Positions 9,129 through 14,221 of a DNA stretch of 64,000 bases are shown here, in pieces. How positions within the stretch are numbered: the stretch's first letter is position 1; the number at the start of each line of letters is the position of its first letter. Both the position numbers and the translations under genes were made by a program. The DNA lies in NCBI RefSeq assembly GCF_040371545.1, contig NZ_AP029048.1, positions 1,302,001-1,366,000 on the forward strand. The letters run 5' to 3'. The DNA is from Synechococcus sp. M16CYN. Its GTDB lineage: Bacteria > Cyanobacteriota > Cyanobacteriia > PCC-6307 > Cyanobiaceae. The notes below the pieces were generated by a model. The model had not been told where the DNA came from. It worked only from the letters and a program-made list of their open reading frames with translations, and made no database searches.

Positions 9129-9980
9129 GTGATTTCAGGACTTGTTGCTGCCCTTGGGGCAGCCATGGCGTGGACGGGAGCCAGTAGTATGTGGCGATCC
9201 TTATCGCTATTTGGCACAGCCGTTGAACTGAATGGTCTAAAAAACGGACTAGCAACTCTCCTCTTTCTGCCCCTACTGATTACTCTCCCATGGACTAATC
9301 AATTTGGATCTGTGTTGATGTTATTATTCAGCGGGTTGATTGGAATCGGTGTTGGCGATAGCTTTCATCTTGGAGGACTAAGGCGACTGGGGACACAACG
9401 TGTGCTGACCGTGGAAGCAAGTGAGCCCGTATTAGCCAATCTGGGTGGTTTTCTACTAATGGGGGATACACTTCAGCCCACATCTTGGTTGGGGGCCATT
9501 TTAGTAAGTTGCTCCGTAGTATTAGTTGCTAGTCAAAGCGATGTGTCGAAAAGTGGGCGTGGCAGAAGATTAGGACTTACGTTTTCGATATTGGCGGTAC
9601 TGTGCGGATTGATAGGAGCCTTTATGGCGCGGCAAGCACTAATAGTCAGTAATTTTACACCGTTTCAGTCGGCGGCAGTTCGCTTGCTGGGTGGATGGTT
9701 AGGTCTATTGCCAGTATTGCGTGGACGTCTATACCCTGAAGCATTACCACCTCGGATAATTCCCAAAATACTGTTAGCTACTGTAATCGGCACTAACATC
9801 GGCATTGTTCTTCAGCAGGTTGTTTTTCAAACATTACCTGTTGGTGAAGGCGTTACTTTAATGAGCACTGCTCCTGTGATGGCCTTGCTAATTAGTAGGA
9901 TGGAGGGAGAAATGGTTCAATGGCGCGGAGTCGCAGCAGCAGTCTTTGTTGTTTTTGGCGTAGCGTTGAGTAGTCTTTGA
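9129..9980 (+). CDS. EamA/DMT-superfamily transporter
   Basis: An inner-membrane permease of 283 residues with about ten hydrophobic segments arranged as two five-helix halves, the usual EamA layout. Examples of the segments are LVLLLFSGLIGIGVG-like and AVFVVFGVALSSL at the C-terminus. Members export or exchange amino acids, nucleotides or other small metabolites; the substrate is not predictable here. The start is GTG at 9129, preceded by AGGAG seven bases upstream. Its 3' end overlaps the convergent GTPase gene by 64 bases. Family is confident, function is not. Confidence 0.85.
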   Translation: MISGLVAALGAAMAWTGASSMWRSLSLFGTAVELNGLKNGLATLLFLPLLITLPWTNQFGSVLMLLFSGLIGIGVGDSFHLGGLRRLGTQRVLTVEASEPVLANLGGFLLMGDTLQPTSWLGAILVSCSVVLVASQSDVSKSGRGRRLGLTFSILAVLCGLIGAFMARQALIVSNFTPFQSAAVRLLGGWLGLLPVLRGRLYPEALPPRIIPKILLATVIGTNIGIVLQQVVFQTLPVGEGVTLMSTAPVMALLISRMEGEMVQWRGVAAAVFVVFGVALSSL

Positions 9981-10999
9981 AGCCCTGACTCAATAGCGAA
10001 GGCTGCAGAATCAGTTAAAGCAAGGACCACTAAATCAACACCAGCGCCAGACACCGGTTGCCATAGGCTATGCGGCGCTGCTTCAAACCAACTGTTTAAG
10101 CGAGGGCCGACCATTTGGAGCTGTAGTGGAAGAGCCTTACCAGTAAGCCAAACGCGTCCTTTAAGGCGGATCACCTGGTGATCTCGCACCAACTTTGGGA
10201 GCAGTGCTTCCAATACGCTTCGATCCAAGTCACCTTCTAAACGAACGTTACTTTCAATTACTGCTACATGACTATGATGATGTTCATGGTCATCTTGAGC
10301 ATGAACTGGTGTCTGGTGCTCAAGGCCAAGGATTACCGTTGCATCCAATGAACCGTTCGCAACCGCCAAGAGCGCCGTACCGTCGCGAACGCCAGGCAGA
10401 AGTGATACTTTGACTTCATCAAGTTGACTCACCGATAGGGTGTCAGCTCGACTGATAAGCACCAGGTCAGCAGCCTGTAATTGGTTCTTGAATAATTCAT
10501 CGATCGCATTAATGTGATCGAGGCTGGGATCCTCTAGCCGTTGTCTCTCAAGCGCCTCAGGGTCTGCCACTGGGCTGCCAGCGGCAAGAGCTTCGCCATC
10601 TACCAGCGTCACCACACCGTTGATATGTACCTCGCTTCTAATCTCTGGCCAATCCAAAGCTTGAAGCAGGGGACGAGGCAGAGCCAAACCACTGGTTTCG
10701 ATAACGATGCCGTCTAATTGATCAGATCGCTTCAACAGCTTCTTCATGGTTGGCAGGAAATCATCCTGCACTGTGCAGCAGAGGCAACCGTTATTGAGCT
10801 CAACTAACCGATTTTCCACTTCTTCTTCCGAGCAAAAGCCGCAACTGCGAATCAACGCTCCATCAAGACCAATGCTTCCAAACTCGTTAATGACTACTGC
10901 AAGACGTCGGCCACCATTAACAAGTAAGCGACGGATAACAGTCGTCTTACCGGCGCCGAGAAACCCTGTGATGATAGTTACAGGAAGTCGTTTTGCCAT
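9917..10999 (-). CDS. COG0523/CobW-family GTP-binding metal chaperone
   Basis: A 360-residue P-loop GTPase of the G3E family. The Walker A motif GFLGAGKTT is near residue 13, the metal-binding CxCC motif (GCLCC) near residue 73, and a guanine-specificity SRAD-type loop lies mid-protein. A histidine-rich stretch (HDDHEHHHSH) near residue 240 is a typical metal ligand cluster, and the CobW C-terminal domain follows. COG0523 proteins deliver zinc, cobalt or other metals to client enzymes. No adjacent zinc or cobalamin gene fixes the metal. It lies 12 bases downstream of the pentapeptide gene and is probably co-transcribed with it. It overlaps the convergent transporter gene at its 3' end. Confidence 0.88.
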   Translation of the reverse strand: MAKRLPVTIITGFLGAGKTTVIRRLLVNGGRRLAVVINEFGSIGLDGALIRSCGFCSEEEVENRLVELNNGCLCCTVQDDFLPTMKKLLKRSDQLDGIVIETSGLALPRPLLQALDWPEIRSEVHINGVVTLVDGEALAAGSPVADPEALERQRLEDPSLDHINAIDELFKNQLQAADLVLISRADTLSVSQLDEVKVSLLPGVRDGTALLAVANGSLDATVILGLEHQTPVHAQDDHEHHHSHVAVIESNVRLEGDLDRSVLEALLPKLVRDHQVIRLKGRVWLTGKALPLQLQMVGPRLNSWFEAAPHSLWQPVSGAGVDLVVLALTDSAAFAIESGLQRLLNATPKTTKTAAATPRH

Positions 11000-11011: not shown

Positions 11012-11524
11012 TTAAGGACGACACCCGAGACTTTCACGTGTCGATACGCCACTGCGAGGGTTGACACCGTCAGCGCTACCACAAAGCGCCCTTTGCTGAG
11101 GCAAATCGAGAACTGCGTCGGTGAAGTCAGCACCCTCTATACGAGCGTTCGTGAAACGGCTCTGCATTAGCATAGCATTCTTCAGTATGGCTCCACGGAG
11201 ATCTGCGCCATCAAAACGACTTGCAAACCCCACAACGTCTGAAAGATCCGCATTACGCAAATCAGCACCCTGAAGTTGAGTGGTATTAATCACAGCACCG
11301 CGAAGATCCGCCCCACTGAGATTCACTTCTCGCAGATTCGCTTTCAAGAATTCTTGTTCCTTGAGATCCATTCCGTGCATATCGGCTGTGATTCCTTGGT
11401 AAGCACTGCTACCTCGCAGTTCAGGAGCGGTAATCGCTTGCACTACATCGATCCTCCAGAAAAGCGCTGTGGTACCAACCAGAAGAGCCGCGAAAATTGA
11501 GACCAAATAAAAGAGAAATTGCAC
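11012..11524 (-). CDS. Pentapeptide-repeat protein with N-terminal membrane or signal segment
   Basis: 170 residues from a GTG start. Residues 1-24 are hydrophobic ([14 protein letters not shown]), either a signal peptide or an anchor, pointing to the thylakoid lumen or periplasm. From about residue 50 to 145 the chain shows A(D/N)Lxx repeats such as ANLRE, ADLRG, ADLRN and ADFTD, which fold as a right-handed beta helix. A C-terminal tail holds two cysteines (ALCGS, LGCRP). Cyanobacteria have many such proteins, mostly without known role. It is probably in an operon with the downstream GTPase and is divergent from the UPRT-like gene. Confidence 0.85.
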
Positions 11525-11580
11525 CTAGACAAGTAACTCGACCGTTTACGTTATTGCAGCTCCGAATAGAGCGTTGCGTT

Positions 11581-12183
11581 ATGGCTACGAGCCTCCGCGT
11601 GGTGGTGCCACCTCATCCCCTGATTGGTCATTGGCTCACCATGCTTCGACACCGGGAGACACCACCAGCGTTGTATGCAACTGCGATACAAGAACTCGGC
11701 CGTTGGTTGACCTACGAATCCCTGCGGGATTGGCTCCCCCATCGGCGCGAAATTGTACCCACAAGCCACGGCAACACCGAAGGGCTCGTAGTGGAAGCAA
11801 GAGTGCCCCTTTTGGCAGTCCCTGTTCTGCCAGGGGGCTTGGAACTGTGGCAAGGCGCTCGACAGGTCCTACCCGATGCAGCCCTATGTTTAAACGGCGT
11901 TCCCACAAACATCGAAACCAACGCGGGCGTGGTGTTGTTTATCGATCAAATTACCAATGGGGAAATCACCTTGGATCTCGTTCAACAGCTCCAGAATCAA
12001 GATATCAACGGGAATCAACTGAGAGTGATTACAGTGGTTTGCGCAAGTCCTGGTTTAAGGACTCTGGGAAGGGCAGTACCTGAACTTACTTTATACACCG
12101 CTTGTATCGATGAAGATTTGGACGATTCAGGACAAGCCAATCCCGGCATCGGTGACCCTCTGCAAAGACTCAACATCAGATGA
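11581..12183 (+). CDS. Uracil phosphoribosyltransferase-like protein, PRPP loop not conserved
   Basis: 200 residues from ATG 11581. The N-terminal HPLIGHWLTMLR and LTYES stretches and the C-terminal YTACIDEDL and PGIGD segments match uracil phosphoribosyltransferase, which forms UMP from uracil and PRPP. The catalytic core has diverged: the usual VPILRAG is VPVLPGG, and the PRPP-binding loop normally read as DPMLATGGS is replaced by IDQITNGEIT. The region is also a little shorter than in E. coli Upp. Activity on PRPP is therefore doubtful; a regulatory or uracil-binding role is possible. An upstream extension to 11497 is open but unlike the family, so the ATG is preferred. It is followed 39 bases later by a small membrane protein gene. 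Confidence 0.75.
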   Translation: MATSLRVVVPPHPLIGHWLTMLRHRETPPALYATAIQELGRWLTYESLRDWLPHRREIVPTSHGNTEGLVVEARVPLLAVPVLPGGLELWQGARQVLPDAALCLNGVPTNIETNAGVVLFIDQITNGEITLDLVQQLQNQDINGNQLRVITVVCASPGLRTLGRAVPELTLYTACIDEDLDDSGQANPGIGDPLQRLNIR

Positions 12184-12222: not shown

Positions 12223-12501
12223 ATGGGGCAGAACCATGACAGCGGCTTTGGCACACTGATGTCTCTCATGACAGGCGCAGTGATTGGAGCCACCGGTCTC
12301 GCTTGGTTGCTACTGAACAAAGCAGATCGTCGTCGTCGTGTCAGTGGGCAAAAAGCGATGCTCTACGCCTCACGCATGCAAGACGGGTCTGAAGCATTTG
12401 AACCCACTGATAATGGCCACTTAGAGCAACGGATTGAAAAGCTCAATGCCGAAATTGCGCGAGTACGAGCTCAGTTGGAAGGCCTCGGAAAAGACAACTG
12501 A
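12223..12501 (+). CDS. Small membrane-anchored hypothetical protein, 92 residues
   Basis: A 92-residue protein with one hydrophobic segment (LMTGAVIGATGLAWLLLN, about residues 11-28), then a basic RRRRV stretch and a predicted coiled coil (LEQRIEKLNAEIARVRAQLEGL) at the C-terminus. It is probably tethered to a membrane with the coil in the cytoplasm. The layout resembles short gas-vesicle/YtxH-like membrane proteins, but I do not assign a family. It sits between the UPRT-like gene and ilvD on the same strand, with short spacing on both sides, so it may be in one transcription unit. Confidence 0.72.
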   Translation: MGQNHDSGFGTLMSLMTGAVIGATGLAWLLLNKADRRRRVSGQKAMLYASRMQDGSEAFEPTDNGHLEQRIEKLNAEIARVRAQLEGLGKDN

Positions 12502-12547
12502 GTTCTTGATTTAAGTTGATTGAATGACTGCAAGTCCAACCTGCACC

Positions 12548-14221
12548 ATGCTCCGCTCTGATGTCATCACTAAGGGAACTCAACGTTCACCCAATCGCGC
12601 CATGTTGCGGACAGTCGGATTTAGTGATGCTGATTTCGGCAAACCAATCCTTGGAATTGCAAACGGCTATAGCACAATCACGCCCTGTAACATGGGCCTG
12701 GACGCTTTAGCAAAATGCGCCGAGGAGGCGGTTCGTGCCGCTGGAGGGATGCCGCAGATATTCGGGACTATCACAGTAAGTGATGGTATCTCAATGGGCA
12801 CAGAGGGGATGAAATACTCCCTAGTGAGTCGTGAAGTCATCGCGGATGCTATTGAGACAGCTTGCAACGGTCAAAGCATGGATGGCCTGTTAGCTGTCGG
12901 CGGTTGCGACAAAAACATGCCTGGAGCCATGATGGCCATGGCACGGATGAACATCCCTGCGATATTCGTTTATGGGGGAACGATTAAGCCTGGAAAGCTC
13001 GGCGGCCGTGATCTCACCGTGGTGGACGCTTTCGAAGCGGTGGGTCATCTGGCCAGCGGGAAGATCGATGAAAAGCAACTCATTGCCATCGAGAAAAATG
13101 CCTGTCCTGGAGTAGGAAGCTGCGGTGGAATGTTCACCGCTAACACCATGAGTGCTGCCATTGAAACTATGGGTCTTAGCCTTCCTTACAGTTCCACGAT
13201 GGCGGCAGAAGACGCAGAAAAAACCGAAAGTGCTGCTCGATCAGCAGAGGTGTTGGTGAATGCCGTTAAGGCTAACATTCGACCGCTAAATCTTCTTACT
13301 AAAGAAGCCTTCGAAAATGCCATCAGTGTGATCATGGCGGTGGGTGGGTCCACTAATGCTGTTTTGCATCTATTGGCCATTGCCCGAATTGCCAGGGTCG
13401 ATTTAAATATCGACGACTTTGAACGAATCCGCCAACGCGTTCCAGTGATCTGCGATCTCAAGCCCAGCGGGCGCTTCGTAACAGTTGACTTACATCGAAC
13501 CGGGGGAATTCCTCAAGTAATGAAGTTGCTGTTAGATGCCGGATTACTGCACGGCGATTGCCGCAATGTAGAAGGCAAAAGTCTGCGAGAGCTGTTAGCA
13601 GACGTGCCCTCCACACCACCAGGAAGTCAGGATGTTATCAAACCTCTTAGTAATCCTATTTACAATAAGGGGCATTTGGCCATCCTAAAAGGTAATTTAG
13701 CTCAGGAAGGCAGCGTAGCTAAAATTAGCGGTGTTAAAAGGCCAGTTCTAACAGGTCCTGCTCGGGTCTTTGAAAGCGAAGAGGATTGTTTGGCAGCTAT
13801 TTTGGACAAGAAAATCAATACGGGCGACGTTGTGGTGATTCGCTACGAAGGGCCTGTTGGAGGGCCCGGTATGCGTGAAATGCTGGCTCCCACCTCCGCT
13901 ATAGTTGGACAGGGCCTTGGTGATAAAGTGGCCTTGGTCACCGATGGGCGCTTTAGTGGTGGTACATACGGGCTGGTGGTGGGGCATGTGGCACCAGAAG
14001 CTGCTGCTGGCGGGACAATCGGGCTTGTTCGAGAGGGAGATAGCATCACTGTAGATGCCGATAGATTACTTCTTCAACTCAACGTTGATGATACGGAACT
14101 GGCTAACCGCCGTGCGACCTGGTCACGACCGAAGCCCCTTTACACGACAGGTGTTTTGGGCAAATACGCCAGACTGGTTTCAACATCCAGCAAGGGAGCA
14201 ATAACGGACCAGTTAGATTGA
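12548..14221 (+). CDS. ilvD: Dihydroxy-acid dehydratase
   Basis: 557 residues from ATG 12548, the standard length; an ATG at 12524 adds eight residues without homology. The enzyme dehydrates 2,3-dihydroxy-isovalerate and -methylvalerate to the keto acids of valine, isoleucine and leucine synthesis. The three cluster cysteines are visible: TPCNM (near residue 47), GGCDKNMPG (near 120) and CPGVGSCGG (near 190). The C-terminal active-site region has VGGPGMREM and [10 protein letters not shown]. Its stop is adjacent to the convergent gene at 14222. Confidence 0.97.

Follow-up and report, generated by a model that had tools for sequence, protein, structure and literature searches.

A uracil phosphoribosyltransferase-like protein without PRPP-binding elements is conserved in picocyanobacteria and is probably a pseudoenzyme

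In uracil phosphoribosyltransferases (UPRTs), we take PRPP to be bound by three elements, as described in structure papers and UniProt: R78 in the RAG motif, R103 in the flexible loop and the loop at positions 130-138 (DPMLATGGS). The plastid UPP of Arabidopsis, unlike the protein described in this study, is an active enzyme with a PRPP loop, and it presumably carries the N-terminal signature of the B-type UPRTs defined below. Whether the role of plant UPP in greening depends on catalysis is debated. The knock-out of this plastid protein is described as light-dependently albino and dwarf (PMC10380321), and a function of the protein in establishing photosynthesis is reported (PMC9312225). The krishah gene of Drosophila is needed for larval growth and its protein is reported to be active (PMC4536494). 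Among the published examples that we found of a UPRT that is changed yet needed, the animal homologues come closest. In the open-licence literature on cyanobacterial and Prochlorococcus UPRT, on pseudoenzymes and on moonlighting, we found no description of the loss reported here, which does not prove that none exists.

In this study, we analyzed a UPRT-like gene from Synechococcus sp. M16CYN. The gene lies in a stretch of 64,000 nucleotides (contig NZ_AP029048.1, positions 1,302,001 to 1,366,000), which is called the window hereafter. The features of the locus are given in Table 1.

Table 1 Features of the locus of the UPRT-like gene in the window.
Feature	Position	Strand	Evidence or remark
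CobW-type GTPase, synteny anchor	9917..10999	-	Pfam cobW 161.2 bits; TIGR02475 328.8, cut-off 332.1
Pentapeptide-repeat protein, divergent neighbour	11012..11524	-	Pfam PF00805 71 bits
UPRT-like protein without PRPP-binding elements	11581..12183	+	200 aa; Pfam UPRTase 105.6 bits
N-terminal module, residues 5-53, most constrained	11593..11739	+	B-type signature P10, W18, P28, L31, L39, W42, W51
Former RAG motif, replaced by PGG (R78 to P)	11830..11838	+	Residues 84-86
Shortened flexible loop, residues 101-115	11881..11925	+	R103 and about ten residues deleted
Former PRPP loop, IDQITNGEI replacing DPMLATGGS	11941..11967	+	Window sequence, alignment
Former uracil hood, PGIGDPLQRL (canonical PGLGDAGDR)	12142..12171	+	Alignment
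Small protein with weak similarity to the ssl2009 thylakoid membrane family	12223..12501	+	NF053524 23 bits, cut-off 58
IlvD, dihydroxy-acid dehydratase, synteny anchor	12524..14221	+	TIGR00110 782.7 bits

The UPRT-like gene, its locus and the loss of the PRPP-binding elements

The initial annotation had described the frame as intact, and this is the case: it runs from an ATG start to a TGA stop. A TTG codon at 11497 is an alternative, longer start; Met occupies the position of the ATG start in all 12 aligned relatives. In a Pfam search, the protein scored 105.6 bits against a cut-off of 27 for UPRTase (PF14681, residues 9-192). Therefore, the homology to UPRT is not due to chance. The scores for the Upp equivalogs of NCBIfam were below the cut-offs, namely 92.3 against 114 for NF001097 and 85.2 against 208.35 for TIGR01091. 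On present evidence, it is unwarranted to name the window protein uracil phosphoribosyltransferase. A phage or viral origin of the gene was also considered and rejected: there was one distant phage record (27.4%), and viral contigs gave no relative.

An alignment of 245 rows was used, 215 from the family of the window genome, presumably Cyanobiaceae, and 30 outgroup rows from the phylum. There is one row per genome, plus 13 named records that possibly repeat some species. Before counting, the initial set of 253 proteins was reduced by L014 and by seven second copies of a genome; the genera g2, g19 and g23 contribute no row. Chain 2ehj served as the ruler of the alignment and gives the numbering of R78, R103, 130-138, D199 and A200. 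It should be mentioned that, for the outgroup (30 rows) and for the first 30 rows of the family, the UPRT matches with the highest search scores were taken and not a random draw; their intactness is therefore partly due to selection. Moreover, the rule by which a row was called intact is strict: rows with DPILARGAT (genus g30) and DPMVASAAT (genome G260) were scored as lost despite keeping both arginines. By this rule, all 30 outgroup rows and 32 of the 215 family rows retain R78, R103 and the loop. A further 109 family rows make up the loopless clade, to which the window protein belongs, and the remaining 74 are eroded to various degrees. We presume the loopless clade to be marine from the 13 named records (Synechococcus, Prochlorococcus and uncultured cyanobacteria) and general knowledge, and on the same grounds we take the class to be oxygenic.

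A UPRT-like relative is kept in nearly every marine picocyanobacterium examined. All 19 genomes of the window's genus and all 60 genomes of genus g21 (one cut by a contig end) contain a match without an internal stop. Genus g22 has a match in 13 of 17 genomes; the other four genomes are drafts with a completeness of 90-96%.

The initial annotation had read the PRPP loop as lost (IDQITNGEIT, from residue 121) and the RAG motif as PGG. Both readings agree with the sequence and with the alignment, which extends them to the whole clade. At the position of R78, P is present in 109/109 loopless rows and R in 30/30 outgroup rows. The alignment also reveals a further lost element: R103 is missing in 109/109 loopless rows together with about ten adjacent residues of the flexible loop, so that segment 104-129 is 17 aa long in the loopless proteins versus 26-27 aa normally. 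The loop itself has the consensus xDQIxxGxx in the loopless clade, and [DE]Q[IV] is found in 107 of the 109 rows. Position 131 is D or E, and position 132 is Q, in 108 rows each; the [DE]QI motif is absent from the intact rows.

Loop intermediates exist among the 245 rows: DPMVATGGT, APQVARGDS, AAQVASGAT and LPVLASGAT. APQVARGDS and AAQVASGAT align without gaps between DPMVATGGT and xDQIxxGxx. These gap-free intermediates rule out that the PRPP loop is present but shifted and, together with the clade-wide conservation, that a sequencing error caused its loss. Some eroded lineages retain part of the loop (LPVLASGAT, VPVVATGRT) and, judging from these residues, may retain weak activity. In the former uracil hood, P188, G189, G191 and R196 are present at 99-100% in the family rows. 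The canonical PGLGDA (195-200) reads PGIGDP in the window protein. Of the 109 loopless rows, 93% have P at the A200 position, and 54% keep D at position 199, where N is also frequent.

The locus shows where the loopless gene came from. In basal relatives, an intact upp is found at the same locus, with CobW-like and pentapeptide genes pointing away on one side and, on the other, the small gene and ilvD. Among the 30 best-scoring family loci, 11 show the full set of five genes within 1.5 kb, and eight of these 11 are intact by the rule; in the other 19, the flanking sequence is short or the far neighbours differ. Because intact and loopless genes occupy one locus, the loopless gene is the original upp altered in place. 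The start codons of the pentapeptide gene and the UPRT-like gene are 56 bp apart (window 11525-11580). Across the 112 family loci examined, 111 have the pentapeptide gene in divergent orientation at a distance of 29-162 bp (median 75), and the 112th (L089) is cut by a contig end. The 56-bp gap and this conserved pairing make a shared promoter region likely. The pentapeptide gene was not found beside any of the 30 outgroup loci. Read by eye, the pentapeptide-repeat protein has a hydrophobic start that resembles a signal sequence, and the protein may therefore be exported or reside in the lumen. As a separate observation, IlvD of the window genome sits on a long end branch in a quick tree (0.36, median 0.054), and its end branch in the rpoB tree stands out less (0.058, median 0.02). 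Because of the long IlvD branch, the window genome may be evolving faster than its neighbours.

Selection, the N-terminal module and the predicted structure

The strength of selection was estimated as pairwise dN/dS by the Nei-Gojobori method for pairs with dS of 0.1-1.5; saturated pairs were left out, and the pairs are not independent. In four loopless groups (233 of 496, 101 of 253, 330 of 435 and 55 of 78 pairs used), the median dN/dS was 0.149, 0.142, 0.155 and 0.118. The medians for intact groups were similar (0.158 and 0.233), and that for the outgroup was 0.118, from only 29 of 435 pairs. In the eroded groups g14 and g15+g18, the constraint is relaxed (0.313 and 0.335). Thus, the loopless gene is under purifying selection and is not decaying. 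The initial annotation had supposed that the protein is probably still useful; the medians of 0.12-0.16 and the retention in 19/19 and 60/60 genomes bear this out.

The constraint is distributed unevenly along the protein. For residues 5-53, dN/dS was 0.025-0.061 in loopless, 0.085-0.087 in eroded and 0.094-0.118 in intact groups, whereas for the former catalytic core (77-177) it was 0.150-0.183, 0.376-0.423 and 0.178-0.241, respectively (in the segment-wise calculation for g31, 99 of 253 pairs were used). Because residues 5-53 are more constrained than the core, we conclude that the loss of the active site left the N-terminal module in place. The mean column entropy is 0.63 bits at the N-terminus and 0.65 bits in the hood, versus 1.96 bits at residues 125-145, which are among the most variable.

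The N-terminal module carries the signature by which we recognize the B-type. It should be mentioned that the division into B-type and other UPRTs is our own and is based on the phmmer similarity of the outgroup rows to the window protein (125-138 versus 50-70). The seven signature residues (Table 1) are present in 94-100% of loopless rows, 95-100% of other family rows and 100% of the nine outgroup B-type rows, versus 0-5% of the 21 other outgroup rows. The window protein carries P10, W18, P28, W42 and W51. In one sample, all 53 same-class genomes outside the family had a strong B-type match (61-100% identical to L070), and some of them have a second UPRT. In a larger sample, one same-class genome (G454) had no UPRT match better than E 3.2e-5. 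Thus, the B-type is common but not universal. In intact enzymes, the entropy of the N-terminal module is 0.33 bits, level with the loop strand, and only the hood is lower. Because the module is also well conserved in intact enzymes, its constraint could reflect folding or dimerization alone, and this would speak against a separate role of the module.

The window protein was modelled with AlphaFold from 13 sequences, namely its own and those of 12 relatives (mean pLDDT 88.4). The best PDB match of the predicted model is a UPRT, 2ehj (Z 25.8, rmsd 3.7, 192 residues aligned). All 14 UPRT entries listed have Z values of at least 21.0, versus 12.3 for the next entry, and Foldseek matched the predicted model to 6wn8 (E 4.8e-18). 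The window protein is thus predicted to keep the UPRT fold. As a control, an intact UPRT was modelled likewise from nine viral-contig sequences (mean pLDDT 84.4). In the window model, a strand runs through DQI and is followed by a three-residue turn into the helix, whereas the control has seven residues there. In the control, two strands flank the R103 position; the window model lacks them or keeps two residues, so that these strands are largely gone. Because of the modelled strand and the short turn, the loop segment appears to be present with its anion hole seemingly collapsed.

Recurrent loss of the active site and the presence of PyrR

The intact and lost labels were mapped onto an rpoB tree with 65 rows (24 intact, 40 lost and one unlabelled), in which G006, one of 66 genomes, was left out for its short match. 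The label changes nine times on this tree and eight to ten times in bootstraps, and at least four changes are forced by well-supported branches. The loopless clade represents one loss (11 rows, support 100/99). A second loss is found within genus g34, whose nine rows (five intact, four lost) form a clade with support of 97/97. An IlvD tree from 81 of 122 available rows gave a similar scatter of labels. Some of the changes could be regain by recombination. The active site has been lost repeatedly within the family.

We then considered whether another protein might cover the activity of Upp. PyrR, which NCBIfam names a bifunctional regulator/UPRT, is above the cut-off in 214 of 222 family genomes, and five have no match. 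The window genome is among the 214: its PyrR scores 248.2 bits against a cut-off of 138 and has the PRPP loop VDDVIFTGRT. Because PyrR is common where Upp is intact too, PyrR permits the loss of Upp but alone does not explain it. In three near-complete genomes of genus g22 (G185, G189 and G190), weak PyrR matches in two or three pieces were observed (E 3.6e-11, 8.5e-16 and 2.5e-23), as if PyrR itself were decaying there. A nucleobase permease (PF00860) was found in 45 of 222 family genomes, 43 over the cut-off and nearly all weak; no relation to the state of the loop was evident among the genomes listed, which leave out 157 without a match.

One genome, G072, possesses a second, canonical UPRT of another type on a draft contig (L090, G072:C24, 4918-5598; IDPMLATGQS and PGLGDAGD). 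This genome keeps its eroded upp orthologue (L091) besides. If the canonical gene is not a contamination, this suggests that the two UPRT-type proteins do different things.

Possible roles of the loopless protein and comparison with known systems

We propose, with a probability of roughly two in three, that the window protein is a pseudoenzyme that arose from a B-type upp, lost PRPP binding and is kept for a non-catalytic role of its scaffold. It is probably doing a job other than uracil recycling. The loss of the three PRPP elements, the descent in place, the selection, the retention of the signature and the co-presence of PyrR are directly supported. According to this proposal, the loopless gene is the in-place descendant of a true B-type upp of cyanobacteria. 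With PRPP binding lost, phosphoribosyl transfer would presumably be lost as well, and PyrR perhaps rendered the UPRT activity of Upp dispensable. A second, non-catalytic role of the B-type scaffold, chiefly of residues 5-53, would keep the gene; binding of a partner protein by the dimer seems the most likely such role. A role of this kind would explain the survival of the loopless proteins. The fixed neighbours, as a sign of a partner, are circumstantial.

The conserved hood allows a different proposal, which we regard as possible but doubtful: a protein that no longer binds PRPP could still bind uracil, UMP or a similar compound under the PGxG hood and signal the pyrimidine state to a partner. 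Because PGxG is kept, ligand binding may still be possible. The near-invariance of P188, G189, G191 and R196, D at D199 in about half of the loopless rows and a hood entropy as low as that of the N-terminus are in line with this. However, A200 has become P, N frequently takes the place of D199 and the remainder of GDAGDR has changed. Moreover, the adjacent flexible loop is short by about ten residues, and the hood glycines could be retained for the fold. It is unlikely that the former PRPP loop has become an acidic [DE]QI site that catalyzes another reaction. Such a site would account for the near-invariant residues 131 and 132 and for their motif being missing from intact rows. In the model, however, the motif is placed within a beta strand, with only the short turn after it, and the following residues 125-145 vary strongly. 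Furthermore, among the 11 columns whose conservation is confined to loopless rows, T34 and Q123 alone are polar.

That the protein is still a UPRT, which binds PRPP differently or with a partner subunit, we consider very improbable, since the three PRPP elements were lost together in the loopless clade. The predicted retention of the fold is compatible with activity, and the Drosophila homologue, which is predicted not to bind uracil, is reported to be active in cells and in vivo (PMC4536494). However, the animal proteins described there keep the PRPP site and instead lack glycines of the uracil site (PMC4536494). Least probable of all is a decaying pseudogene: the relaxed constraint that decay would leave is seen in the eroded groups g14 and g15+g18, whereas the four loopless groups remain constrained and the frame has no internal stop in any of the 60 and 19 genomes of the two genera.

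If the pseudoenzyme proposal is extended, B-type UPP may have an ancient, enzyme-independent role in oxygenic phototrophs, which is exerted by the N-terminal module and tied to photosynthetic membranes. This extension is speculative, and we would not wager on it. If it is true, picocyanobacteria represent a natural experiment that removed the enzyme but preserved the ancient B-type role, and the role would explain why photosynthesis is not established in plants without plastid UPP.

Several consequences arise for uracil metabolism and for the UPRT family. The gene is likely to be named UPRT by homology, and metabolic models would therefore over-credit uracil salvage. The genomes affected are those of abundant ocean phototrophs, in which the protein is probably incapable of uracil salvage. 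A dead Upp would fit a poor salvage capacity. It has no direct bearing on the export of thymidine, adenine and guanine, which is described for nucleobase exudation by Prochlorococcus (PMC11698098). That the active site was lost repeatedly while the scaffold persisted provides good evidence for a second job of a household enzyme family, and picocyanobacteria offer natural separation-of-function variants for finding this second UPRT role.

The window protein shares the fold, the family locus, the N-terminal module and the PGxG hood with the cyanobacterial B-type Upp (EC 2.4.2.9). In contrast, Upp has R78, R103, the flexible loop and the PRPP loop, whereas the window protein is without all of these and does not reach the NCBIfam cut-offs. 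The animal homologues, human UPRT and Drosophila krishah, are like the window protein in being UPRT relatives with a changed active site. They keep the PRPP site and are missing two uracil-site glycines, which is the reverse of the window clade (PMC4536494). PyrR resembles our reading of the window protein in that a phosphoribosyltransferase fold is used for regulation. However, PyrR belongs to another subfamily, is encoded at another locus and keeps its PRPP loop, which the window protein has lost. Finally, the plastid UPP of Arabidopsis is, like the window protein, a UPRT of a photosynthetic lineage. If the plant protein is of the B-type, the loopless proteins would be natural separation-of-function versions of it.
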